Below, piece by piece: positions 21,848-36,553 of a DNA stretch of 36,553 nt. How positions within the stretch are numbered: the stretch's first letter is position 1; the number at the start of each line of letters is the position of its first letter. Both the position numbers and the translations under genes were made by a program. The stretch comes from Gemmatimonadota bacterium (lineage in GTDB: Bacteria; Gemmatimonadota; Gemmatimonadetes; Gemmatimonadales; Gemmatimonadaceae): assembly GCA_003141205.1 (NCBI GenBank), contig PLLD01000281.1, positions 1-36,553 on the forward strand. Reading direction: 5' to 3'. The notes under the pieces were generated by a model. It saw only the letters and a program-made list of their open reading frames with translations. It was not told the origin of the DNA and ran no database searches.

Positions 21848-22001
21848 TTGGCCGGGGCGGTGCGGCTGAGGGACGAAACGATCTCGCCGCTAGAGCGTGC
21901 GGAGCAATCCGATGCCGAGCGTCAGGAGGCTCGCAGTGAGGGTCATGGCCCCGATGTAGACCAGCTTGACTGCACCGTTTCGTAGGAGAGTCTCGCTCCG
22001 C

Positions 22002-22437
22002 CTACGGCGCGCGCGCGCCCTCGGTCCGAAGGTTTCTCACCGAGTCGGCGCCGCTCGTCGCGTAGTGTGCCACGGTGATACCCACGAGCTTTCCGTCCTG
22101 GAGTCGGCTCACGGTGTGCGTCGTGACCATGACGTGCTTCCGTAGCACGCTCGGGTAGGGTCCGGCGTCCATGATGATGCTGTCACCGGCGACGACAACG
22201 CGCTCCGAGATGGGTGCCCGTTTGGGGAAGGTGATCGTCCAGCCCGCGGTGGTGGATGTCGCGTTTAGCACGAATGCGACGAGAGTACTGTCCCCCGCTG
22301 CGTTCATTGTGCGCATGTTCCACTTCCCGGCGAGGTCACCGAGCGACAGCGCGGCCGGTGGCGCCGGTGCTGCGGCAGGCGGTCGCGGTGCGTGCTCGCC
22401 AAGGATAGTCTCAACGCGCTAGCCGAGTCAACGCGGC
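22002..22437 (-). pseudogene. 5'-truncated duplicate of the lipoprotein gene at 33786..34277 (lost start codon and lipobox)
   Basis: LAGKWNMRTMNAAGDSTLVAFVLNATSTTAGWTITFPKRAP...VMVTTHTVSRLQDGKLVGITVAHYAT.SADSVRNLRTEGARAP is closely similar to 33786..34277; upstream DNA joins promoter-region sequence (gatagtc..gagtcaacg) directly to the mature domain. Confidence 0.8.
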
Positions 22438-22550
22438 CGGCGCGGGGCGCGCGCGCCATATTCACAACTCATTAGTGATTCATGTGCGCCGGAACAGGCG
22501 GCCAATACGTTGTTGCGTCCGCCGAGATGGTGCACTAACTATGGGCCGCG

Positions 22551-23204
22551 ATGACCCTTCGTAGCGTCCATCGGCCCGATGTATTGCTCGCGACCACGCC
22601 CGTTCTCGGCGCGGCGGTCGCGTTGGTGACGGACGAGCGTGCGCTGGTCGAGGGGATCCGTGCGGGGGAGGCGGGCGCATTTGAAGTGCTCTTCCACCGG
22701 TACTATTCGCCGCTCGTCGATTTTGCGTCGGGGTACCTCCCTGCCGGCAATGCGATGGACGCGGCCGAAGACGTCGTGCACGAGGTTCTGCTACGCGTCT
22801 GGCGCGATCGCGCGACGTGGGCGCTGCGGGGGACGCTCCGTGCCTATCTCTTTGGCGCCGTACGCAACCGCGCGCTCAATATGACTCGTCATGCGCGAGT
22901 AGCCGAGCGGTGGCGCCCCCTGTTTACATCTGACTATGGCGTGCCGGGATTGGCGGAGGGGGGTGTCGGTCCGGACGCGGCGATGGAGCGGGCATCGGAC
23001 GATGCGGTGCGCGACGCGAGGATACAGGCGGCCGTGGCGGCATTGCCGGCTCGTCAGCGCGAGGTCCTCCTGCTTCGCGTCGAGCGCGGCCTCTCGAACG
23101 CGGAGGCCGCCGAGGTGATGGGGATCGCGGCGCGCTCGGCGGAGACCTTTCATTGGCGGGCCGTGCAAGCGTTGCGCCGGTCGCTGGAAGGCATGGTCCG
23201 CTAG
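22551..23204 (+). CDS. ECF-type RNA polymerase sigma factor
   Basis: FEVLFHRYYSPLVDFASGYL...AEDVVHEVLLRVWRDR (region 2) and LPARQREVLLLRVERGLSNAEAAEVMGIAARSAETFHWRAVQALRR (region 4). Confidence 0.93.
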   Translation: MTLRSVHRPDVLLATTPVLGAAVALVTDERALVEGIRAGEAGAFEVLFHRYYSPLVDFASGYLPAGNAMDAAEDVVHEVLLRVWRDRATWALRGTLRAYLFGAVRNRALNMTRHARVAERWRPLFTSDYGVPGLAEGGVGPDAAMERASDDAVRDARIQAAVAALPARQREVLLLRVERGLSNAEAAEVMGIAARSAETFHWRAVQALRRSLEGMVR

Positions 23205-23264
23205 GACGGTCGCGGCCAAGGCGTCCGTGGGGAGCAACCCGGCGTCGTAGATATTGCGTGTAGC

Positions 23265-24329
23265 GTGTCGAACGGACGGATGCCTCCCGACACGCCCGAG
23301 CCACACGTCACGGATATTGCGCTGCTCCTCCGTTTTTTGGCGGGGGACGCGACGCGCGCGGAGCAGGCCGTCGTGCACGGCTGGCTGCGCGTAGATCCGG
23401 CTGGGGAGCGAGCCGGGTTGCTCGAATCGCTCCGCCGCGGCGGCCGGCCGCAGGATCCCGCACTGCCGGCGGCAACCGTTGCGGGCGCGTGGTCGCGAAT
23501 GCGGCAGGATATGGGTGTCGGTCTCGACCGGGGGCCGGTCTCGACCCGCCCGGACTCCGCCACGCGGACGTGGTGGCGCGCGGTCCGCGTGGCGGGAGTC
23601 GTGTGTGCGGCGGCATTGTCGATCACGGTGTTCCGCGCGTCGCATCGCGGTCGCACGGAATGGCGCGAGTATACCACCGTCGCTGGACAGCGCGAATCCG
23701 TCACGTTGCCGGACGGCACGGAATTCACGTTGGCGCCGGCGAGTCGGCTCTCGGTTGCCGCCGATTACGCGGCCGGGAATCGTGCCGTGCGACTCGATGG
23801 CGAGGCGCTTTTTGCGGTCGTGCATGACGACCGGCATCCATTCTCGGTGCGCGCCGGCACCGCAGTGATAACGGACATCGGGACGCAATTCGATGTGCGC
23901 GCGTTCGGGGAGGATGCTTCCACGCGGATTGCGGTGGTGGAAGGGATGGTCGCGGTGGCGCGGGGGGCCGATCGCGACCGAGGGGCGACGAGGATGCCGC
24001 CCGTGCTGCGCGCCGGTGACGTGGCGATCGTGGACACGACGATCGGGGTGACGCACGGTGCGGATGTCACGGCGATGGTGGCTTGGGCGCACGGCGAATT
24101 GGTGTTCGTCGACGCTCCGGTGCCTGAGGCGTTGCGCTCGCTGTCCCGCTGGTACGGCGTGACGTTCGTCGCGGCCGATTCCGCCGTAGCGAAGCAGCAT
24201 CTCGCCGCGCGGTTCCCTCCGGAATCCGTGCAGGAGCTGGCCGATCAATTGGCGGTTGCGTTGGGCGCGCGATACGAGCGGTCGGGGACGACCATCGTAT
24301 TGCGCTCGATGCATCCGACTCACGAGTAG
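23265..24329 (+). CDS. FecR-family anti-sigma factor
   Basis: Single TM, then WREYTTVAGQRESVTLPDGTEFTLAPASRLSVAADYAAGNRAVRLDGEALFAVVHDDRHPFSVRAGTAVITDIGTQFDVRAF; follows the ECF sigma gene. Confidence 0.93.
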   Translation: MSNGRMPPDTPEPHVTDIALLLRFLAGDATRAEQAVVHGWLRVDPAGERAGLLESLRRGGRPQDPALPAATVAGAWSRMRQDMGVGLDRGPVSTRPDSATRTWWRAVRVAGVVCAAALSITVFRASHRGRTEWREYTTVAGQRESVTLPDGTEFTLAPASRLSVAADYAAGNRAVRLDGEALFAVVHDDRHPFSVRAGTAVITDIGTQFDVRAFGEDASTRIAVVEGMVAVARGADRDRGATRMPPVLRAGDVAIVDTTIGVTHGADVTAMVAWAHGELVFVDAPVPEALRSLSRWYGVTFVAADSAVAKQHLAARFPPESVQELADQLAVALGARYERSGTTIVLRSMHPTHE

Positions 24330-24341
24330 GGGAGAATCAGC

Positions 24342-27300
24342 GTGCTGCGTCGCGCTCACCTGGCGTTGTGTCTGGCGTTGGTGGTCAGTAGCCCCCCCGT
24401 GCCTGTGGTCGCTCAGACCATGCAGGTTGCGGCTGTTCCGCCGAAGTTTCTCTCCGTTCCGGAGGGCGGAACGGCCCCGGTGGATGTGAGCGGGGCGCCG
24501 ATCCTGCAGCGTCGGGTGACGCTCGATTTCGATGCCGTGCCGTTGCATGCTGCGCTCGATGCGGTCACGAAGCAGACCGGGATCACGTTCGTGGCGAGCT
24601 GGGAGCTGGCGGCGCTGGGCACGCGGGTGTCGTTACATGCGGACCGGATTACGGCGGTTGCCGCATTGACGGAGCTCCTGGTGGGAGCCGGGCTCGACGT
24701 GCAGCTCACTCCCAACGGAGTCGCGACCCTTATTCCCCGTGCTGCCGTTCCGTCGCGGTATGCGGCTCGACAGGGCGCGGCGACGATCGCCGGCCACGTG
24801 ACCGACGGGGCGCTCAAGTCGCCGCTGTCTGACGTGTCGGTTCGGGTCGAGGGGACGGCGCTCCGCACTACGGCTAACACGGCCGGGAAGTACACGATCG
24901 CGGGCGTTGCAGCGGGGACCTATCGTATCACCGCCCGGCGCGTGGGATATCAGCCGCTCACGAAGGAGATCACCGTCGCGGGCGATCAGGTCGCCACGCT
25001 TGACTTCGCCCTGGTGGGGGCGCCGACGCGGCTCGACGAAGTCGTGACGACGGCCGTCGGTGAACAAAGACGCTATCAGGTCGGGAACGACATATCGGTG
25101 ATCAATGCCGACTCGATCGCGCCGACGGCGCCGATTACGAGCTTAACGGACCTGATCTCCTCCCGGGCGCCGGGCGTTACGGTGCTCGAGACGAGCGGAT
25201 TGACCGGATCCGGCGAAGCGATACGTATTGAGGGGCTCTCGAGCCTCGTCCTGCAGAACGACCCCATTCTGATCGTCGACGGCGTGCGCCAGGATAATTC
25301 GGCCGGGGGGGATCTCGCGGTATATGCATTGGGCGGGAGCCACCCGACGCCCAGCCGTCTCAACGACATCGATTTCAGCGACATCCAGACGGTCGATATC
25401 CTGAAGGGGCCGTCCGCAAGCACGGAGTACGGGACCGATGCGGCGAATGGCGTCATTGTCATTACGACGAAGCACGGAGCGACGGGCGCACCGCAATGGC
25501 GAGCGTCGGCGGAGCAGACGGAGAGCGGCATCCCTCAGCGCTTCGCGACCGGCTACTATAGCTGGGGCCACACGACGGATGGGACGAATACCGCGGTCGA
25601 TTGCCAGCTGAGCGCCCCCTATCCCCAGCTCGCGTTCGGCTCATCAGCGGGCAACTGCATTGTCGACAGCGTGACCCGGTGGAACCCGTTGAACCATGCC
25701 GCGACATCGATCTTCGGCACCGGGAATCGAGGGAAATACGACCTGTCGGTGAGCGGTGGATCGGATGCCGTCCGGTACTTCGTCTCCGGCGGCCTGTCGA
25801 ACGAGACCGGGGTGATCCAGATGCCGGCGGTCTTCAAGGAGGTAGCCGACACGGCGGGGCTGGGGTTACCGAACGCGGCGTTCGCCCCCAATAGCGAGCA
25901 ACAGCGGTCGGTACGCGCCAACACGTCGATCAAGCTCGGACCGACGGCGGACCTGACGGCGGCGGCCAGTTATCTCGCGACGTTCAAGGAGACGCCGAAT
26001 GCGTCGACGCTGTACGCCGGCGTCTTCAACGCGCCCGCCCTGAGCGACGCCGCGCATTACTACGGGTATGGATACTACGGCGGATCGTCCGCCTCACTCA
26101 CGCCGCTGTCGCAGCTGTCGGAGATCGGATCGCAGAACAGCGACCGTGTGACCGGCGGTCTCACGGCGAACTGGCGGCCGACGGGCTGGTTTGTCGGACA
26201 CGCGACCGTAGGCCTCGATCATGGGTCGCAATCGAGTCAATCGCTCGACTACCCCCTCGCCAACAGCGCATATGAGTACTCACCGCCGTCGCTGGGTATC
26301 GCCGATGTGACGACGGATGTGTACTCGGTGGATCTACGGGGCACGGTGACGGCATCTCTCTCGCGCGGGCTCCGCGCCGTGACATCGGGTGGACTCCAGA
26401 TGGTCGACACGCGGGTCGCCGGGCAAACCGCCTACTCGCGAAATATCACCGCCACGAACCTCACCCTGAATGGCGCGACCGGCCCCCTCGTAACGCAGAT
26501 CGGGACGCGGCAGGCCACGCTGGGTGGGTACGGGGAGGAGGAGCTGAGCGTCGCCGATCGGCTCTTCGTGACCGGAGCGCTCCGGATCGATGCGGCCAGT
26601 GGCTTCGGAGGGGCCTATGCCACCGCTGCGTATCCCAAGGCCAGCGTATCGTGGCTCGCCCTCGACGGCGGCCGTACGACCATCCGCGTGCGCGGCGCCT
26701 TCGGCGAATCGGGTGTGCAACCAATGAATGGGGCGGCGCTGCAATTGTATGGGCCGATCGTCGCGCCGGTCGGCAGTGGCGGAAGCTCGGTGCCTGCGAG
26801 CCTGGTGAGCTGGCCGGGAAACCCGAACCTTCGGCCCGAGCGCTCCGAGGAATTCGAGGGCGGAGTGGACGTCGGTGGATGGGGGAACCGCGTCAGCCTG
26901 GCACTCACAGGCTACTCCAAATCCACCCACGACGCATTGGTGAACGTCGATCTGGGCGGGACGCTGGGGGACTACACGTATCAGGAGAACATCGGCGAAG
27001 TGCGGAATACGGGGCTCGAAGGGAGCTTGACGGTGGGCGTGGTAGAGTCCCGCTCGGTCACCTGGGAGGTCGGGCTGAACGCCTCTGTGAACCACAACGT
27101 GCTGATCTCCCTGGCTCCCGGCGTGATCGCGCAAACGGTGAACACGTTCGCGGTACAATTCCGGCAGGCGGTGGCTTTCCCCCTGTACGGGATCTGGGCG
27201 CAGCCCTCGACATACACGGATGCGAACCACGATGGGATCATCGAGCCGAACGAGCTCACCGTAGGCGATTCCGCCGAATACTCCGGGTCGAGTCTTCCCA

Positions 27301-27812
27301 CGCAGGAGGTCTCCATCTCGACGCACCTGGGGCTCTGGAGGGGGGCTCTCGCGGTCGCGAGCCTTGTCGACTATCGCGGCGGCTATAGGATCGCGAACAC
27401 AGTCGGGGGGATCATGGATGGTTCCGGGAATTCGCCCGGGACGAACAATCCCACGGCGCCGTTGTGGCTGCAGGCCCGAGCCATCTCCAACAACATCGGG
27501 GCGGCTCCGGCGCTGGACGTAGAGGATGGGTCGTTCGTGCGGGTCCGGGAGGTATCGGTGACCTACACCGTACCGCACTCCCTAACGCGCAAACTGCGGC
27601 TGCAGAATCTCAGCGTGACCGGCGCGGTGCGGAACCTCGCGCTATGGACCCGCTATAGCGGCATCGATCCGGAGGTGAGCAACTCCGAGGGATCCAACGT
27701 CCAGCTCTCGCAAACGACGGGTGGGGCCGTGGTCAACAATGACGTGCGCTCGGACGCAGGCGCGGTGCCCTTGGCGCGGTACTGGGTACTTCGGCTCAAC
27801 CTGGGACTGTGA
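24342..27812 (+). CDS. SusC/RagA-type TonB-dependent outer-membrane receptor with STN and CarboxypepD_reg domains
   Basis: STN: VTLDFDAVPLHAALDAVTKQTGITFVAS; IAGHVTDGALKSPLSDVSVRVEGT...VGYQPLTKEITV; plug: GEAIRIEGLSSLVLQNDPILIVDGVRQ...VDILKGPSASTEYGTDAANGVIVITTK. Confidence 0.95.
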   Translation: MLRRAHLALCLALVVSSPPVPVVAQTMQVAAVPPKFLSVPEGGTAPVDVSGAPILQRRVTLDFDAVPLHAALDAVTKQTGITFVASWELAALGTRVSLHADRITAVAALTELLVGAGLDVQLTPNGVATLIPRAAVPSRYAARQGAATIAGHVTDGALKSPLSDVSVRVEGTALRTTANTAGKYTIAGVAAGTYRITARRVGYQPLTKEITVAGDQVATLDFALVGAPTRLDEVVTTAVGEQRRYQVGNDISVINADSIAPTAPITSLTDLISSRAPGVTVLETSGLTGSGEAIRIEGLSSLVLQNDPILIVDGVRQDNSAGGDLAVYALGGSHPTPSRLNDIDFSDIQTVDILKGPSASTEYGTDAANGVIVITTKHGATGAPQWRASAEQTESGIPQRFATGYYSWGHTTDGTNTAVDCQLSAPYPQLAFGSSAGNCIVDSVTRWNPLNHAATSIFGTGNRGKYDLSVSGGSDAVRYFVSGGLSNETGVIQMPAVFKEVADTAGLGLPNAAFAPNSEQQRSVRANTSIKLGPTADLTAAASYLATFKETPNASTLYAGVFNAPALSDAAHYYGYGYYGGSSASLTPLSQLSEIGSQNSDRVTGGLTANWRPTGWFVGHATVGLDHGSQSSQSLDYPLANSAYEYSPPSLGIADVTTDVYSVDLRGTVTASLSRGLRAVTSGGLQMVDTRVAGQTAYSRNITATNLTLNGATGPLVTQIGTRQATLGGYGEEELSVADRLFVTGALRIDAASGFGGAYATAAYPKASVSWLALDGGRTTIRVRGAFGESGVQPMNGAALQLYGPIVAPVGSGGSSVPASLVSWPGNPNLRPERSEEFEGGVDVGGWGNRVSLALTGYSKSTHDALVNVDLGGTLGDYTYQENIGEVRNTGLEGSLTVGVVESRSVTWEVGLNASVNHNVLISLAPGVIAQTVNTFAVQFRQAVAFPLYGIWAQPSTYTDANHDGIIEPNELTVGDSAEYSGSSLPTQEVSISTHLGLWRGALAVASLVDYRGGYRIANTVGGIMDGSGNSPGTNNPTAPLWLQARAISNNIGAAPALDVEDGSFVRVREVSVTYTVPHSLTRKLRLQNLSVTGAVRNLALWTRYSGIDPEVSNSEGSNVQLSQTTGGAVVNNDVRSDAGAVPLARYWVLRLNLGL

Positions 27813-29215
27813 TGCGCCCGCGGATAGTCGTCCTAGCGGTAGGCGTCCTGACGCTGGGCGTCGCGTTTGGGTGCCGCCCGAGCGATGTCTTGAGCGTACC
27901 GGCACCCGACGGGGTCGTCGCGAGCAGCGCGCTGCAAAATCAAAACGGCGCGGAGAGCGCGCTCAATGGCGCGAAATTGCAGCTATTCGACGGGGCCGAC
28001 GGTAGCCTGAGCGACGGCGTGTTGGGCAACACCGGCCTGCTGTCGGACGAGTTCACCTTTAGCGGCTTCTCGGACCTCGGCTCGTATGCGAATGTCGACG
28101 CCCGGATGACGGCCGCGAGCCGGGGCTTTGCCGAGCCGGGCGATGCCCCCTGGGTGAAGTTGCTCCAGGCGCGGTCGGCGCTCGCGTTGGCGCTTCCGCT
28201 ACTCGAGAAATACGAGCCGGCGAGCGGGCGATCGAAGGTCGGTGAGGCGTACGCGCTTCTCGGGTATGCAGAGCTGCTCATCGCCGAGTCGTATTGCGCA
28301 GGCACGCCGCTCGATGGGCTGGTGCCGGGGGGCGGCGTGCAGTATGGGACGCCCCTCACGACGGACTCCCTGCTCGGACTCGCCCAGGCCCATTTCGACT
28401 CCGCCGTCGCGGCGGCCACCGGAAGCGACTCCGTGGTGGGACTTGCCAGCGTGGGGCTCGGCCGGACCCTCATGGACCGTGGCCAGTATGGGGCGGCGGC
28501 GATGGCGGTGGCAGGAGTGCCGATAAGCTTCGTGTATGCCGCGACGCTCGAGCAGAGCAACACGACGGCTCCCTTCATCGAGAATCTCTACGCACAGGCG
28601 ATACAGAACAATTTCAACGCGGCCTTCAACATCGCGGATGGCGAAGGGATCAATGGACTGAATTTCATCTCGGCACACGACCCCCGTCTGGCCATCGATA
28701 GCTCGATGCTGACGGCCGATGGCGGCACGTGGTATCTGCCGGCGAAGTTCGAGGCGAATCTGTCCTCCATCCCCCTTGCCACCGGAGTCGAGGCCGGTCT
28801 GATCGTCGCCGAAGCCGCGCTGCAGACGAGCGCTTCCACATGGCTTGCGGACGTGAACGCGTTGCGGGCGGCCGGGCCCAGTACTTACCTCGGCCTGGAC
28901 AGCGCCCTCGTGCCGTTGGCGGATCCCGGGACGGATAGCGGCCGCGTGAGTCTCATGTTCCGCGAGCGAGCGTTCTGGCTATTTGGGACGGGGACACGGC
29001 TCGGAGATCTCCGGCGGCTGGTTCGGCAGTATGGACGAGATCAGAGCACGGTATTTCCGTCGGGGCCCTACGCGAACGGCAATAACCCGTTTCTCCCCGT
29101 ACCGGTGCCGCATTACGGAGCGGACGTGGATCTGACCCTACCGACGCCGGCGGGCGGGGTCACGATCACCAACCCCAGTTACAAGGGATGCCTCGCGTCG
29201 ACGACCGTCGCGTGA
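27812..29215 (+). CDS. SusD/RagB-like outer-membrane lipoprotein
   Basis: Signal with lipobox LTLGVAFGC; helical SusD-like fold, C-terminal FRERAFWLFGTGTRLGDLRRLVRQYGRDQSTVFPSGPYANGNNPFLPVP; ATGA overlap with susC. Confidence 0.9.
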   Translation: MRPRIVVLAVGVLTLGVAFGCRPSDVLSVPAPDGVVASSALQNQNGAESALNGAKLQLFDGADGSLSDGVLGNTGLLSDEFTFSGFSDLGSYANVDARMTAASRGFAEPGDAPWVKLLQARSALALALPLLEKYEPASGRSKVGEAYALLGYAELLIAESYCAGTPLDGLVPGGGVQYGTPLTTDSLLGLAQAHFDSAVAAATGSDSVVGLASVGLGRTLMDRGQYGAAAMAVAGVPISFVYAATLEQSNTTAPFIENLYAQAIQNNFNAAFNIADGEGINGLNFISAHDPRLAIDSSMLTADGGTWYLPAKFEANLSSIPLATGVEAGLIVAEAALQTSASTWLADVNALRAAGPSTYLGLDSALVPLADPGTDSGRVSLMFRERAFWLFGTGTRLGDLRRLVRQYGRDQSTVFPSGPYANGNNPFLPVPVPHYGADVDLTLPTPAGGVTITNPSYKGCLASTTVA

Positions 29216-29231
29216 CGATGAGGTACTTTAG

Positions 29232-30650
29232 ATGAGATCGGCCGCACGTGTTTGGACGCTCATTTGCTGGAGCGCCTGGACTGCGGGGTCGGCGGCGGCG
29301 GCGCGCGCCCAGCTCGCCCCCATTCCAGTGGATCAGCTGGATAGCACCGGGCACCGGCACAGTCCAGCGGCCCTCGGCACGCCGGACGAGTTGCGGGTCG
29401 ATGTGGAGCTCGCGGCCGAGGACGGTCGCGATGCGATCGCGCCCGCAGACACTCTTTATCCGAAGGATGCGCTGCGCGCGGCGACGGTAGCGCGCGCGCG
29501 GGTGTGGCTCGATTCCGTGGCGGCGAAACCGGTCCATGGGCTCCAGCTCACGCCATACGGCCAGCTGGCGGTGATGGGCGAGCAGGATGCGCTCGCACAA
29601 AAGGAGCTCGCGCAGCGCCTCGCGACGCCGGGGTTGTCGGTGGAGGACCGGGCCTTTGCGTTGAGCGCTGGCGCAATCGCCTTTGCCGATCGCGAGCACC
29701 CGCAGTGGCTATCCGTAGCAGAGCGGTATCTGGCCCAGCTCGTGGCACTTGGCGTCCCGGGCGACGCGTGGCAGTTCGCCGCCCGCGACCAACTCTCGGC
29801 CGTGTACTACGAGCTTGGCCGGCGCCCCGAGGCTCTGGCTCACGCACTCGGCGCTTATGCGCTGCTGCCGGACCTTCCCTTCGAGGAGCATATCCTTGGG
29901 ATGAACGGGGGATTGTATTTGCGGGTCGCGGACATCCTTCTCGGGACGCCGGGAATGGCGGACGGACGCAGCCGAATGCACGCCGTGGATTCCTTGATCG
30001 TTGCGATGGCGCATCCCGCGCCCGACCGAATTCAGCTCGATTCGGGGACGCTATGGCCGGGGCAGCGGATGATTCGGATGGTGCAGGCGGACAGCGCGTT
30101 TGTTTTCTCGATCGGGCAGCCTGGCGCTCCGGTTAGGGGAACCACGTGGATCAACGGGACCGATGCCGGCCCGCACGACCAACGGGTTGATGACGGGCGG
30201 GTCTACCTCCTCGATTTCTTCCCACTGGGCGCGCCGTCGATCCTGGCGGGGCAACTAAGCCTGGAACGTCTGCAGCGGCGCCTGGGCCCCGCCGTCCAAG
30301 TCATCGGAATTACCAGCGCGAGCGGCCATTGGGGCGAGCAGTTCGTCGACCCCGACGTCGAGATCCAACGATGGCAGCATTTCTTCGCGCAGGATCTTCG
30401 GCTGAGCTTCCCGGTCGCCATTTGGGCCAGACCCAAGGAGCAGACGCTGCAGGGCGGCATGCTGCCTCCGCAGAATCCCACCCTCGCTGCCTATCATATG
30501 CCCGGCGGATTCGGCGTGGTCGTCGTCGACGCGCGAGGGCGCGTGCGCCGCTTCTTCACCGCCGGGCGCGACCAGGAGGATGACATCGCCCAGTTCGTGA
30601 CGCAGATCGAGGCGGAGGGGACGGGCACCGCGCCACGTTCCGCGCGATGA
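29232..30650 (+). CDS. TlpA/AhpC-TSA-like thioredoxin-fold protein with N-terminal helical region, cysteine-free mature protein
   Basis: DDGRVYLLDFFPLGAPSILAGQLSLERLQRRLGPAVQVIGITSASGHWGEQF...YHMPGGFGVVVVDARGRVRRFFTAGRDQEDDIAQFV; signal peptide. Confidence 0.7.
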   Translation: MRSAARVWTLICWSAWTAGSAAAARAQLAPIPVDQLDSTGHRHSPAALGTPDELRVDVELAAEDGRDAIAPADTLYPKDALRAATVARARVWLDSVAAKPVHGLQLTPYGQLAVMGEQDALAQKELAQRLATPGLSVEDRAFALSAGAIAFADREHPQWLSVAERYLAQLVALGVPGDAWQFAARDQLSAVYYELGRRPEALAHALGAYALLPDLPFEEHILGMNGGLYLRVADILLGTPGMADGRSRMHAVDSLIVAMAHPAPDRIQLDSGTLWPGQRMIRMVQADSAFVFSIGQPGAPVRGTTWINGTDAGPHDQRVDDGRVYLLDFFPLGAPSILAGQLSLERLQRRLGPAVQVIGITSASGHWGEQFVDPDVEIQRWQHFFAQDLRLSFPVAIWARPKEQTLQGGMLPPQNPTLAAYHMPGGFGVVVVDARGRVRRFFTAGRDQEDDIAQFVTQIEAEGTGTAPRSAR

Positions 30651-32356
30651 GACCGGTGTCGGGCGGGGTCGAAGGGGCGGCGGGCCACAGTCAGCTCTCT
30701 ACGGGGAGCGCGGCACGGGGTTGCTCGCGCCGAGCGTTCGTCTCAGCTGCGTCGCTGGCGGTGGCGGGTATTGCGATCGGAGCGCGCCGTCTGTCGGCGG
30801 CGGAGCTGGCCACCGGGATTGCCCCCAACGCGCTCATGCCGGATCCGATGGACGCGGCCGGGTTGCGGGCGCTGGCGACGGCGGCGATCGACGCCGCGCG
30901 GAGTGCCGGAGCGACATACGCCGATGTTCGAGTGGGTGCGTCCCAACGCTTCTCTCTTGGAAAGACCGGAGGGGCCCTCGGGTTCTGGGCAGCGGGGGAT
31001 GTGTTGTTCGGGTTCGGAATCCGTGCGTTGGTCGGTGGCCGATGGGGCTTCGTTCACGGCGACGTGGCAAGCGCGGATGCCGTTGCGACCGCAGCCCGCG
31101 GCGCGGCGGCGCAGGGGAAGAACGGGGCCGGCGCGACATCGGCCGGGGCGGAGTATGCCCCGGCGGGTGCCGTCACCGGTGAATGGCGCACGCCGATGGT
31201 GATCGACCCGTTCGCGGTTCCCCTGCACGAGCAGATGGCGCTGATCCAATCCTGGCTGGACACGATGGCGGGGGTGCGGGGGCTCGACAGCCGGCCGAGC
31301 GTGGCGTGGCAGAGGGAGGTGAGGGTTTTCGCATCGACGGAGGGATCGCTCATCACTCAGCACTTCGGTCGCATCGATCCGGACTTCGACATTTCGGGGA
31401 CGCGCATGATGGGGGGGGAGACTGTCGAGATAAAAGTTCCGTCGTTCTACGCGATGGCGGGCGGGTACGAGGCGATGGCGCGCGAGTCGATTCATGAAGA
31501 GATAAAGGCGACCGCGGAGGATGTTCGGCGGATGGCAAGTCTCGAGGCGCGGACCCTCGATGTCGGGCGGTATCCCGTCGTCCTGGACGGGATGACGTTT
31601 GGGTCTCTGCTTTTCAGTACTGTCGGCCGGGCACTGGAGCTCGATCGCGCTCTGGGGGAGGAGGCGGACGCGTCGGGGACGAGCTATTTGGCCCCGCCCG
31701 CTAGCATCGTTGGAACGCCGGTTTTCTCGCCCGTGCTGAATGTGAGCACCGATCGCGCACTGCCCAGCGTGACGAGCGCGAAGTGGGATGACGAAGGGGT
31801 CGAGCCGGAGACGGGCCCCGTGATTAAGGGGGGGGCGCTGGTCGATTACGAGACGTCCCGGCAGGCGGCGTCGACGTTGCAGCCGTGGTACCATCGGCAG
31901 AGCCGGCCCGTTGCGTCGCGCGGGAGGGCGGTTGCGACTGCGTGTGACCAGGCCGTGCAGATCCGTTGTGGGCATCTCACGGTAACGCACGCGAGGGCGG
32001 CGGCGACGATCGACGACCTGATTCGCGGCATCCCGCGAGGACTTCTCGTTCGCGGCGGATATCAGATATCGACCGATCAGCAGCTCACGACCGGCAATGT
32101 GGATGCGTTCGGCGGTGCGCTCATCCTTCAGGTGGAGAAGGGGCGCGTGGTTCGGCGGGTCAGGAATGTTGGACTGGAATGGAGCACACTGCCGTTCCTC
32201 AAGACCCTTGCGGCTGTCGGAGATGCGAGCACGGTGGCTCACGCGACAGGGGAGAGCTACAAGGGCGTGCCCTGGCACGGCGCGCCGTATCACACGACGG
32301 CTCCGGCTGGGCTGTTCACAGAGGTCAGGGTGGTTGAGATCGGTGGAGCGATCTAG
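30647..32356 (+). CDS. TldD-like protein (TldD/PmbA family) with Tat-type signal, metal-binding motif absent
   Basis: CSRRAFVSAASLAVAGIAIG Tat-like signal; HEEIKATAEDVRRMASLEARTLDVGRYPVVLDGMTFGSLLFSTVGRALELD; SAKWDDEGVEPETGPVIKGGALVDYETSRQAAS. ATGA overlap with the preceding gene. Confidence 0.85.
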   Translation: MRPVSGGVEGAAGHSQLSTGSAARGCSRRAFVSAASLAVAGIAIGARRLSAAELATGIAPNALMPDPMDAAGLRALATAAIDAARSAGATYADVRVGASQRFSLGKTGGALGFWAAGDVLFGFGIRALVGGRWGFVHGDVASADAVATAARGAAAQGKNGAGATSAGAEYAPAGAVTGEWRTPMVIDPFAVPLHEQMALIQSWLDTMAGVRGLDSRPSVAWQREVRVFASTEGSLITQHFGRIDPDFDISGTRMMGGETVEIKVPSFYAMAGGYEAMARESIHEEIKATAEDVRRMASLEARTLDVGRYPVVLDGMTFGSLLFSTVGRALELDRALGEEADASGTSYLAPPASIVGTPVFSPVLNVSTDRALPSVTSAKWDDEGVEPETGPVIKGGALVDYETSRQAASTLQPWYHRQSRPVASRGRAVATACDQAVQIRCGHLTVTHARAAATIDDLIRGIPRGLLVRGGYQISTDQQLTTGNVDAFGGALILQVEKGRVVRRVRNVGLEWSTLPFLKTLAAVGDASTVAHATGESYKGVPWHGAPYHTTAPAGLFTEVRVVEIGGAI

Positions 32357-32358
32357 AC

Positions 32359-33777
32359 GTGCGTCTATCTCGGACGTCCGCATCGAGCGACGAGCCGGTC
32401 CTGACGCGCGCGCAGGCGCACGAGCTCGGGCAGAAGGCGTTGGGCATGACGTCTGCGGATATCGTCAGCATGGAACTCGTTCACACGACCCGGCAGATCA
32501 CGCGCATCGCTGGCGATCGGACACGCACCGGTGATGATGGCGACGAGCTCCGCATCACCGTCACGACCGGATACGGACAGAAGGGCACCGTATCGATGGT
32601 GACGAATCAGGTCGATGACGCGATGCTCAAGGGGGCGGTCGTCCGGGCTGAGGGTGCGGCGCGCGCTCTGACCGGCCCCCTGCGCAGTCTCCTCAATATT
32701 CCTCGGGGGCCGTAGCAATACCTGCCGGTCGACCTATGGCGGGATGCGAGCGTCGCGGCGCTGCGGGAAAGGACGACGGCGGCGTCGGACATGATCGACG
32801 TGGTGCGGTCGGCGGGATTGGTGGCGGCGGGGTTCGTGGGTGTTATGGCACGGTGCGCGGCGGTCATGAATAAGGATGGACTGGAGAGTTACTATCGCGA
32901 GACGGATTGCGAATGCACGATGACCGCGCGGACGGCGGATGGCACGTCATCCGGCTGGCATGGGCAGGCCAACCGCGACTGGGGGAAGGTCGAGGCGCAC
33001 GTGGTTGCGGCGACGGCGGTCGACATCGCGCAACGGGGAGCGAACCCCAAAGCGGTCGAGCCGGGGCGTCATGTGGCGATTCTGACTCCGCTGGCGGTCG
33101 TGCAACTCGTGCATCTCATGACGTCGGCATTCGACGCGATCCAGACCGATAGCGGCGGAACCCCGTTTTCCATGCATCCGACCGGGAGCAAGCGTGGGCT
33201 GCGTGTGTTCGATCGGCGGCTGAGCATGTCGTCGGATCCGGCGGATGCGGATGGCGGGTATCGCCCGGACTTTGCCGGTGGCATGCCGGAGCCCAAGATG
33301 ACGTGGGTGGAGAACGGGGTACTCACGAATCTGGCGTACAGCCCGTGGTACGCCATGGAGACGGGTCAGCGCTATGCGGGCGACCCCTGGTCGTTCCGGA
33401 TGAGTGGGGGATCGGCATCGATCGAGAGCATGATCGCCGCGTGCCAGGAAGGGATCCTTGTCAATCGCGTCTCGAATCTCGAGCTCAGCGACGCGTCCAA
33501 GGGAACGGTGACCGGTGTCACGCGCGACGGGTGCTTCCTGGTCAGGCAGGGCAAAATCGTCCAACCGGTCAAGAACTTTCGGTTCCGCGACTCGCCCTGG
33601 TTCTTCCTCAACAACATTCTTTCTCTAGGTGTCCCGGTTCGCGCCGCGTTTGGCTACACTCCGCCCGCCGCGGACGAATCCTTTGGCGATTCGACCGCGT
33701 GGCCTCGCCGCCCCATCATCGTGCCGCCGATGATGGTCCAGGACTTCAACTTCACATCGTTAGCGGAAGCGGTGTAA
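32359..33777 (+). pseudogene. TldE/PmbA-like gene interrupted by an in-frame TAG at 32713-32715
   Basis: ORFs 32359..32715 and 32791..33777 are in the same frame; sequence between reads ...LNIPRGP*QYLPVDLWRDASVAALRERTTAASDMIDVV... Both halves are PmbA-like (N-term ITRIAGDRTRTGDDGDELRITVTTGYGQKG; C-term GVTRDGCFLVRQGKIVQPVKNFRFRDSP). Confidence 0.88.
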
Positions 33778-33785
33778 TCGGTCCT

Positions 33786-34277
33786 TTACGGCGCGCGCGT
33801 GCCTTCGGTCCGAAGACTCCTCACCGAGTCCGCGCTCTTCGTCGCATAGTGTGCGACGGTCGCGCCCGCCAGCTTGCCGTCCTGGAGACGGCTCACACTA
33901 TGCGTCGTGACCATGAGGTTCTTTCGCAGCACACTTTGGTACGGCCCGGCATCCATGACGAGGCTGTCACCCGCAACGACGACGTGTACCGGTACGGGCG
34001 CTCGTTTGGGAAAGTTGAGAGTCCAGCCCGTCGGGGTAGAGGTCGCGTTCAGCACGTAGGAGACGAGGGTGCTGTCCCCCGCCGCATTCATAGTGCGCAT
34101 GTTCCACTTGCCGGCCAGGTCGCTGAGCGACAGGGCGGGTGGGGGCGGCGGCGCCGGGGCGGCAGCGGGAGGTGCGGCGGCGACCGCGGTCGAGTCCGGG
34201 TGGGCGGCAGGTTCGGACTTCTGGCAGGCGCAAAGAAGGGTCGCGTAGCAGCAGCACGCAATCGTGAGACGGCGCAT
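33786..34277 (-). CDS. Putative lipoprotein, hypothetical (intact paralogue of 22002..22437)
   Basis: MRRLTIACCCYATLLCACQKSEP lipobox, Pro/Ala linker, ALSLSDLAGKWNMRTMNAAGDSTLVSYVLNATSTPTGWTLNFPKR... Confidence 0.75.
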   Translation of the reverse strand: MRRLTIACCCYATLLCACQKSEPAAHPDSTAVAAAPPAAAPAPPPPPALSLSDLAGKWNMRTMNAAGDSTLVSYVLNATSTPTGWTLNFPKRAPVPVHVVVAGDSLVMDAGPYQSVLRKNLMVTTHSVSRLQDGKLAGATVAHYATKSADSVRSLRTEGTRAP

Positions 34278-34344
34278 CGTACACTCCGTGTTCGAGGGCG
34301 CCGCGGCGCTGGTGCGCTGCGGCAGACGGTGCCCGTGCATTCCA

Positions 34345-34372
34345 ATGATAGTCAAGACGTTAGCGGAGTCAA
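34345..34372 (-). promoter_or_regulatory. Candidate promoter (TTGACT - 16 bp - TATCAT) for the lipoprotein gene
   Basis: Minus strand TTGACTCCGCTAACGTCTTGACTATCAT; partly conserved in the truncated copy (TTGACT-18-TATCCT near 22408-22437). Confidence 0.5.
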
Positions 34373-34445
34373 CGTGGTCAGTGGAGGATCGGCGCGTGAC
34401 AAATCGTCAATCGCGCGGGGTGGGATGACTACGAGGGGGAAGTCA

Positions 34446-35306
34446 ATGGCGTCAGCACGGCCGCGGGGGGTCCCTGCGACGGGTGCCCATAGTTGGGTCG
34501 TCAGCCGCACGATCCTCGGCGGTGCGCTCCTGACCGTCGCCAGCGCCTGCGCGTCCGTGGCCACGACGCCGGCACCCGCACCCCTGGCGGGGCAGCGTAC
34601 AACTGGGGCCGGTCAGCGCCCGGTCTCGGCCGCGGGGCCCGGCATCCCGGACCTGCCGGATGTGGTGACCGTGGTCCCGTTCCAGCTCTACCAGCCCGAC
34701 ACAAGCTTAGGCTGGATCTATTTCCAGGCGGAACTGGACGGACGCCGGGGGACGTTCAGCCTCGATACGGGTTCGCCCCGCTTCTGGCTGAATCCGGAGT
34801 ATCTGCGGCCCAGCGCCACAGGCGGCATCGATACGGTCGCGGCGGGGGGCCCGCCCCAGGAGGGGTTTGTCACCGTGCACACGATGCACATTGGCACGCT
34901 GCTCCAGCATCTCGACACGACCGATGTCGGGCCGCCGGTGCCGTACCCTACCAATGGGAATATCATGCGCTTTGTGGGACACGAACTCGGGACGTTCGGG
35001 CTCCCTGCGATGGAGCCCTTCGAGACGATCATCGACTATGTGCACCAGCGCCTCATCCTGATTCGGCTCGACACGGCGGGCCGGCGGCTGGCGGCGGTCC
35101 CCGCCTACACCCCCGCGTATACGATGCCACTCCTGCCCGTGAACGAGCATTGGTGGGGCGTAGCGGCGCACACGGGCGACTCGGTCGGCACCTTAGTCGA
35201 TACCGGGGGGGCAGATGGTGCGGACGTCTTGGGCTTTGCATTTCTGAATAGACTGAGGGTGGTGGGGTTCAACTTGCGCACGCACCAACTCATGGTGTAC
35301 CGCTAA
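34446..35306 (+). CDS. Retropepsin-like (clan AA) aspartic protease, lipoprotein-like signal, with truncated second domain
   Basis: ILGGALLTVASAC lipobox-like; AELDGRRGTFSLDTGSPRFWL; IIDYVHQRLILIRLD; GTLVDTGGADGADVLGFAFLNRLRVVGFNLRTHQLMVYR. Upstream ATG 34425 is also possible. Confidence 0.75.
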   Translation: MASARPRGVPATGAHSWVVSRTILGGALLTVASACASVATTPAPAPLAGQRTTGAGQRPVSAAGPGIPDLPDVVTVVPFQLYQPDTSLGWIYFQAELDGRRGTFSLDTGSPRFWLNPEYLRPSATGGIDTVAAGGPPQEGFVTVHTMHIGTLLQHLDTTDVGPPVPYPTNGNIMRFVGHELGTFGLPAMEPFETIIDYVHQRLILIRLDTAGRRLAAVPAYTPAYTMPLLPVNEHWWGVAAHTGDSVGTLVDTGGADGADVLGFAFLNRLRVVGFNLRTHQLMVYR

Positions 35307-35455
35307 TCGCCACGACTCCTCACCTCTTCCTAGTCTACCGCGCGGGCTGATTATAGGATCTAGCGGACGTTACGCGCGTCGTATTCCCCATTCATTAGTG
35401 ATTCATGCGTGCCGGAACGTGCGCGTAGCACGTTGTGTCGTACGTCAGTGATTAT

Positions 35456-35750
35456 GGGTTCTTCCGCACTTTTGGTGATGGGGTCCAGGTGTAGATTCGT
35501 GCGCGGCGCCCATCTTGGAGGCCGGTCTGAACACGACACCGCTGCTGCCCGCCCCGGCAGAATTGCACCTGTCGCACCTCGCCGTGGACGATCGCGGCAT
35601 CACCGTCGTAGCGACGACCCGCCGCCCGGAGGCGCTGTGTCCGTGCTGCGGCACGCGGGCGGTGCGGGCCCACAGCCGCTACACCCGCACGCTCGCCGAT
35701 CTGCCCTGGCACGGGCTCGCCGTGCAGCTCGTCGTCACCACGCGGCGCAC
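35456..35750 (+). mobile_element. Truncated ISL3-family-like insertion sequence remnant (left end plus transposase N-terminus)
   Basis: Terminus-like GGGTTCTTCCGCACTTTTGGTGATGGGG at 35456; ORF 35515 encodes LHLSHLAVDDRGITVVATTRRPEALCPCCGTRAVRAHSRYTRTLADLPWHGLAVQLVVTTRR (ISL3 N-terminal zinc finger), after which homology stops. Confidence 0.7.
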
Positions 35751-35800
35751 AGTAGCGGTACCACCGCCTACAACTTTCCAGGCGCGGCGCCCTGCCCCAA

Positions 35801-36553
35801 CTACCTGTTTGGGCCGAGCCCCATCCGCCGCACGAGCTCCGGGTACCTCGGATCGCTGCGCAGCGGGTCGAGCAGCGGGTCGTTGAAGTTCTCCGGAAGG
35901 AAGATGTCGCGCTCGTCGATGCCCTTGTGCAGCCACCGGAACGCCTCCGTCTTCCGCCCCAGCGCGGTGCATACGATCGCGAAGGCGAACGGCGTCACAT
36001 ATTCGTGCGCTGATCGCTGCTCCAAGTCGTGCAGCACCACGATCGCCGCCTTCCGATTGCCCGAGGCGGCATAGGCCGCGGCGAGAGCCGCCGGGACGTG
36101 GGCGTACTTCCCGCCCAGTTCGAGCGCGTGCTGCAGCGAGATGATTGCCTCCTGGTATCGCCCCTTGCCGATCTGAGCGAACCCGAGCTCCATGTAGCTG
36201 TGCCCGAAGTTCGGGTCGAGCCGGAGGATGCGCTCGAGCTGGGCGATCGCCTCGTCGTCCCGGTGCATGGTATAGAGGACCCAGCCTACCTCCGATCCGA
36301 TGACCCGGGACAAGGGATCGAGCTCCGCGGCTCGTCGCATCTCCAGCAACGCCTCCTCGAGGCGCCCACGTCCGGTCAGGAAATCGGCATACCAGTGGTG
36401 CGCGTTCGCGTAAGCCGGGTCCTGGGCGATGGCCCGCTTGAACAGCGCGTCGGCCCGCGTCCAGTTCCACTCGTTGAGCATCGTTCCGTACGCGAGTGAG
36501 GTGTACGCCTCGGCCAGCGTGCTGTCGAGCGCGAGCGCGCGCTCCGCCGCGGC
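35801..36553 (-). CDS. TPR-repeat protein, C-terminal part (gene runs off the right edge)
   Basis: Repeated TPR units: ADALFKRAIAQDPAYANAHHWYADFLTGRGRLEEALLEMRRAAELDP...; the frame stays open to the window edge (AAAERALALDSTLAEAYTSLAYGTMLNEW...). Confidence 0.88.
   Translation of the reverse strand, partial: AAAERALALDSTLAEAYTSLAYGTMLNEWNWTRADALFKRAIAQDPAYANAHHWYADFLTGRGRLEEALLEMRRAAELDPLSRVIGSEVGWVLYTMHRDDEAIAQLERILRLDPNFGHSYMELGFAQIGKGRYQEAIISLQHALELGGKYAHVPAALAAAYAASGNRKAAIVVLHDLEQRSAHEYVTPFAFAIVCTALGRKTEAFRWLHKGIDERDIFLPENFNDPLLDPLRSDPRYPELVRRMGLGPNR

Follow-up and report, generated by a model that had tools for sequence, protein, structure and literature searches.

The TldD-type gene analysed here lies in a window (the whole stretch of DNA that was analysed) of 36,553 nucleotides from a Gemmatimonadota contig and is, judging from its sequence, an exported TldD relative in which every metal-holding and catalytic residue of the active site has been lost. 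It is followed by a gene for a TldE-type partner, and both belong to a SusC/SusD operon. The two products may form an exported, non-cleaving TldD/TldE chamber that binds the peptides imported by SusCD, a tentative proposal to which slightly less than an even chance is given. The features of the region are listed in Table 1.

Table 1. Features of the operon and of the TldD-type gene (positions in the window).
Feature	Position	Strand	Evidence or remark
ECF sigma factor, probably encoded first in the operon	22551..23204	+	Pfam Sigma70_r2, Sigma70_r4_2, E to 1.6e-11
FecR-type anti-sigma/transmembrane sensor	23265..24329	+	Pfam FecR 9e-18, FecR_C
SusC/RagA-type TonB-dependent outer-membrane receptor	24342..27812	+	Pfam plug, barrel, CarboxypepD_reg, weak STN
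SusD/RagB-like lipoprotein	27809..29215	+	Start overlaps SusC stop; lipobox-like GCR near N terminus
Secreted thioredoxin-like protein (tentative)	29232..30650	+	Alignment; orthologues match Thioredoxin_2/Redoxin weakly
TldD-type gene without metal site	30647..32356	+	569 aa; Pfam PF19289 5.9e-21, PF01523 7.7e-5; NCBIfam TldD 2.4e-10
Twin-arginine motif SRRAF	30725..30739	+	RR conserved across family alignments
FSTVGR at the HExxxH position	31613..31630	+	Residues 323-328; alignment
Clamp region TGESYKGVPWHGAPY	32246..32290	+	Third-ligand column Ser; clamp-tether Lys kept
TldE/PmbA-like partner, no signal peptide, frame interrupted once	32359..33777	+	PF19289 6.8e-26 on downstream part; alignment with partners
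In-frame amber TAG in TldE	32713..32715	+	L100/L101 read CAA (Gln)

The TldD/PmbA domains PF01523 and PF19289 were both detected above their gathering cut-offs in the product of the gene. Among the NCBIfam models, the protein matched TldD (NF040952), at a score far under the equivalog cut-off of 635 bits, and no match was found to PmbA. When a mixed profile was compared with the PDB, TldD (5nj5_A) was scored at 128 bits and PmbA at 58 bits; a profile made from metal-less rows only was ambiguous between them. By scores and in the tree, the protein groups with HExxxH TldD and not with TldE. The preliminary description had left room for a TldE/PmbA-type subunit, which naturally lacks HExxxH; this identity was rejected on the NCBIfam result, the mixed profile and the tree, with the ambiguity of the metal-less profile as a caveat, and a separate TldE-type gene lies downstream. 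A single-sequence search of solved structures gave only a chance-level match to a hydantoinase. An AlphaFold model built from five sequences (pLDDT 48, pTM 0.46) was too poor for inspecting the active site, and its 16 significant PDB matches were all TldD/PmbA.

The protein has a Tat-like start, in which the twin-arginine motif is followed by a hydrophobic stretch (SRRAFVSAASLAVAGIAIGARRLSA). No NCBIfam match to the Tat model was obtained for the window protein itself, and the Tat-like signal claimed beforehand is kept in it, as the RR pair is in the family rows.

The segment VVLDGMTFGSLLFSTVGRALELD is found in frame at 31577-31645; it had been quoted correctly in the preliminary description, but its placement at 31588-31665 was wrong by around 11-20 bases. 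In an ungapped alignment with two paralogues of the same genome that keep HESIGH (L009 and L010), the H, E and H fall on F, S and R, which bears out the three replacements read earlier from the TldD core pattern. The motif columns of a 50-row alignment contained H, E and H in 25 of 25 HExxxH-type relatives, whereas the same columns were variable in 23 metal-less rows (D/A/G/F, A/G/S/E and R/P/A, respectively). Therefore, the loss of the motif is not due to chance.

Regarding the third ligand, it was true that the C-terminal region has no Cys, but the use of this absence alone as the mark of a pseudoprotease had to be rejected. The missing Cys is uninformative by itself because the corresponding residue, Cys in canonical TldD rows, is Asp in 24 of 24 HExxxH-type relatives, and Asp had already been inferred as the third ligand in Gemmatimonas (PMC5810440). 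As this position is occupied by Ser in the window protein, the ligand is still lost. All four columns (H, E, H and the third ligand) vary in the metal-less clade. Thus, the earlier reading as a secreted pseudoprotease is supported, the protein being probably inactive in catalysis. The metal-less clade, the SusCD operon, the TldE partner and its amber codon had gone unnoticed in the preliminary description.

Two cases of partial motif loss were observed in loci of the genomes G122 and G055 (L170 and L165): L170 (LLHETLGAATELD, HETLGA) keeps the H and the E only, and L165 (DGTIGHATELD) keeps only the last H. Both could be intermediates in the loss of the metal site.

The clamp of E. coli TldD is tethered by Lys456, Glu270 and Asp272 (PMC5810440), and the equivalents of these residues were found in 14 of 18 (Lys), 19 of 23 (Glu) and 21 of 23 (Asp) metal-less rows. 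In four paralogues of the window's genome the Lys is replaced by Asn or Val, which counts against a binding chamber.

The metal-less proteins could still be enzymes, either metal-free or with a different active site, as their strong purifying selection and the few residues newly fixed in the clade (an Ala after the motif and a Thr inside it) might indicate. However, the columns of the former active site belong to the more variable part of the clade's alignment, and the alignment columns of the metal-less TldD and of the TldE partners contain no new conserved set of His, Cys, Asp or Glu, making this explanation improbable. A replacement metal site, the other objection raised in the preliminary description, thus has no support at the sequence level in either protein.

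To define the distribution of the metal-less form within the phylum of the window, TldD homologues were searched in 40 relatives, in the family (179 genomes) and in draws of 395 genomes of the phylum and 394 of the class. The motifs were read for the fetched loci, mostly the best-scoring ones, low-scoring metal-less copies being possible elsewhere; the matches listed from a scan of assembled contigs were HOG34 loci. Among the sequences examined from phylum relatives, the Tat-TldD family consists of one clade with H, E, H and Asp and one without the triad. In most genomes, HExxxH is retained in the fetched loci, its usual form being HE...HPTELDR. Metal-less motifs were read in approximately 27 loci of five genomes: 11 in the window's genome (G000, a 2.9 Mb draft, 82.6% complete, with 15 PF01523 matches), 12 in G122 (apparently the HOG34 assembly), two in G055 and one each in G115 and G198, the latter from another family of the same class. 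In a tree calculated without the motif columns, which was a quick search with some long branches, a branch with an SH-aLRT of 91 set 23 of 23 metal-less rows apart from the rest, and on this tree the metal-less TldD has a single origin.

HExxxH copies are also carried by G000, G122, G055 and G115, so that the metal-less protein could be imagined as a regulator or decoy of an active TldD/TldE in the same cell. This reading is disfavoured by G198 (99% complete), where PF19289 finds two genes, the metal-less TldD and its TldE, and nothing else. As the metal-less TldD moreover comes with its own TldE, a decoy role is very improbable.

A TldE/PmbA-like gene was present downstream of TldD wherever the contig extends far enough, and for the homologous partner in L109 a match to NCBIfam PmbA was obtained. 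No hydrophobic stretch was found at the N termini of the TldE proteins. In the window TldE, the frame and the similarity continue past the TAG codon; therefore, the amber codon is either recent or an assembly error, and the window copy, with its putative nonsense mutation or misread base, may be dying or misread.

This interrupted frame is what speaks for a decaying gene without function, and decay may apply to the pair of the window, not to the family. The window TldD is intact, and the approximately 27 homologues of one origin keep their domains, the Tat motif and, mostly, the operon. Furthermore, NG86 dN/dS between window-type paralogues was 0.16-0.17 for TldD and 0.11-0.17 for TldE, values that are approximate as synonymous sites are near saturation; the HOG34 tandem pair gave 0.38-0.45. 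A dN/dS of around 0.17, together with the mostly kept clamp tether, argues against decay of the metal-less family, and loss of function is considered quite improbable.

The seven genes from the sigma factor to TldE are on one strand (22551-33777), separated by short gaps or overlapping by 4 bases, and by this arrangement constitute one tight operon. Its SusC matched TIGR04056 with E=6e-105 and 352.5 bits, slightly under the cut-off of 368. The assignment of the SusD-like protein is weaker: no Pfam match was found for the window protein itself, an orthologue reaches SusD_RagB with 9.7e-5, which falls just short of the cut-off, and the family profile reaches the SusD proteins of the PDB with E of around 0.08. 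The thioredoxin fold of the next product is tentative because its orthologues give only weak matches, and its profile found no match in the PDB. The CxxC of this protein is absent in the window, L100 and L101 and present (CYPC/CHPC) in L102-L105.

Some further observations were made around these genes. With the CxxC lost from the thioredoxin-like protein and kept as CYPC/CHPC in the sister clade, two adjacent genes look like pseudoenzymes. In G122, G055 and G115 the slot of the thioredoxin-like gene, between SusD and TldD, is occupied by an Ig-like lipoprotein (L113:16484-17581; L085:2249-3394), whose C-terminal PGTYRYHSTIFGTAGTIVV looks, by eye, like a plastocyanin tail in which other residues have taken the place of the copper ligands. 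On either side of the operon lies a short ORF of the opposite strand, the two being related to each other (33786-34355, without Pfam match, and 22005-22418), and an ORF at 34455-35306 (+) with two DTG motifs (DTGSPRFW and DTGGADG) and no Pfam match possibly encodes a retropepsin-like aspartyl protease. Rfam gave nothing in 22000-36553.

SusC and/or SusD adjoin the metal-less pair in 18 of 20 assessable loci, in contrast to none of 16 HExxxH loci, where no SusC or SusD was found within around 7 kb (Fisher p=4e-8, with loci that are phylogenetically non-independent). Metal loss and SusCD linkage may stem from one event, so the test is not independent evidence. The exceptions were L106 (C342), with no SusCD found nearby, and L115 (G198), with a SusC 4.4 kb downstream; both count against the chamber. 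Apart from their intact metal site, the HExxxH plus Asp pairs of the lineage (e.g. L009) resemble the metal-less ones in their Tat start, length and TldE partner, with identities of around 30%. In the literature search, no mention of TldD together with SusD was found.

In the proposed mechanism, TldD and TldE would fold together in the cytoplasm, and the Tat signal of TldD would carry both subunits to the periplasm, as TldE has no signal of its own; a precedent exists for subunits without a signal being co-exported by Tat (PMC4273604). There, the hollow heterodimer would receive extended peptides imported by SusCD, each of which would lie uncut in the former substrate cleft as a beta strand, and would serve as a binding or transfer chamber. 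A peptide is held by backbone beta-sheet bonds in E. coli TldD-E263A/TldE, but in this mutant an Asp of the peptide chelates zinc and the metal also helps to tether the clamp (PMC5810440), which counts against a binding chamber since the affinity of a metal-free form could differ. RagAB, a relative of SusCD, takes up peptides (PMC11817032), and peptides would likewise be the putative cargo of the window SusCD. Also in favour of the chamber, another SusD-like gene of G000 is followed by an S9 peptidase.

The main rival, although unlikely, is a periplasmic chaperone, whose chamber would bind unfolded segments of SusC/SusD during their assembly with the thioredoxin-like protein as folding partner. 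The common operon of the pair with SusC/SusD and the thioredoxin-like gene fits such a role, and a barrel precursor would lend itself to being bound in extended form as a beta strand; however, unfolded chains can enter the chamber of E. coli only via a narrow channel. In addition, 34 SusD-like matches were counted in the 2.9 Mb draft of G000 against around 10-11 metal-less pairs, so most SusCD systems do without a TldD/TldE pair. Other SusD genes of G000 are followed by redoxin-like proteins. Judged from G000 by itself, its SusCD set looks large.

Compared with the heterodimeric metalloprotease TldD/TldE (PmbA) of E. coli (5NJ5; PMC5810440), the metal-less pair has the same order of homologous TldD and TldE-type genes, the family domains and, mostly, the Lys, Glu and Asp of the clamp tether. 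It differs in the absence of HExxxH and of a Cys454 equivalent, and its family in having a Tat signal, a SusCD/FecIR operon and many paralogues per genome. With the SusCD/RagAB TonB-dependent operons, the window operon shares the SusC/RagA receptor, the SusD-like lipoprotein, the ECF sigma factor and FecR, to which it adds the catalytically stripped pair. Extending the binding chamber to the whole clade is more doubtful: wholly non-catalytic TldD/TldE might have become a family of cages that are exported by Tat and bind peptides in the periplasm, expanded to roughly twelve copies per genome, each specific to one operon and connected to a SusCD receptor and a sigma/FecR switch of its own.

TldD/TldE consists of one active and one inactive subunit, and in the metal-less pairs the otherwise active one is without its site as well. 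Such a pair, which selection maintains, which has multiplied and which is linked to a nutrient importer, provides a natural test of the role of the chamber apart from cutting. The proposal would add a new type of periplasmic component to SusCD systems outside Bacteroidota, and the sequences suggest that a protease may have been reused for binding imported peptides instead of cutting them.
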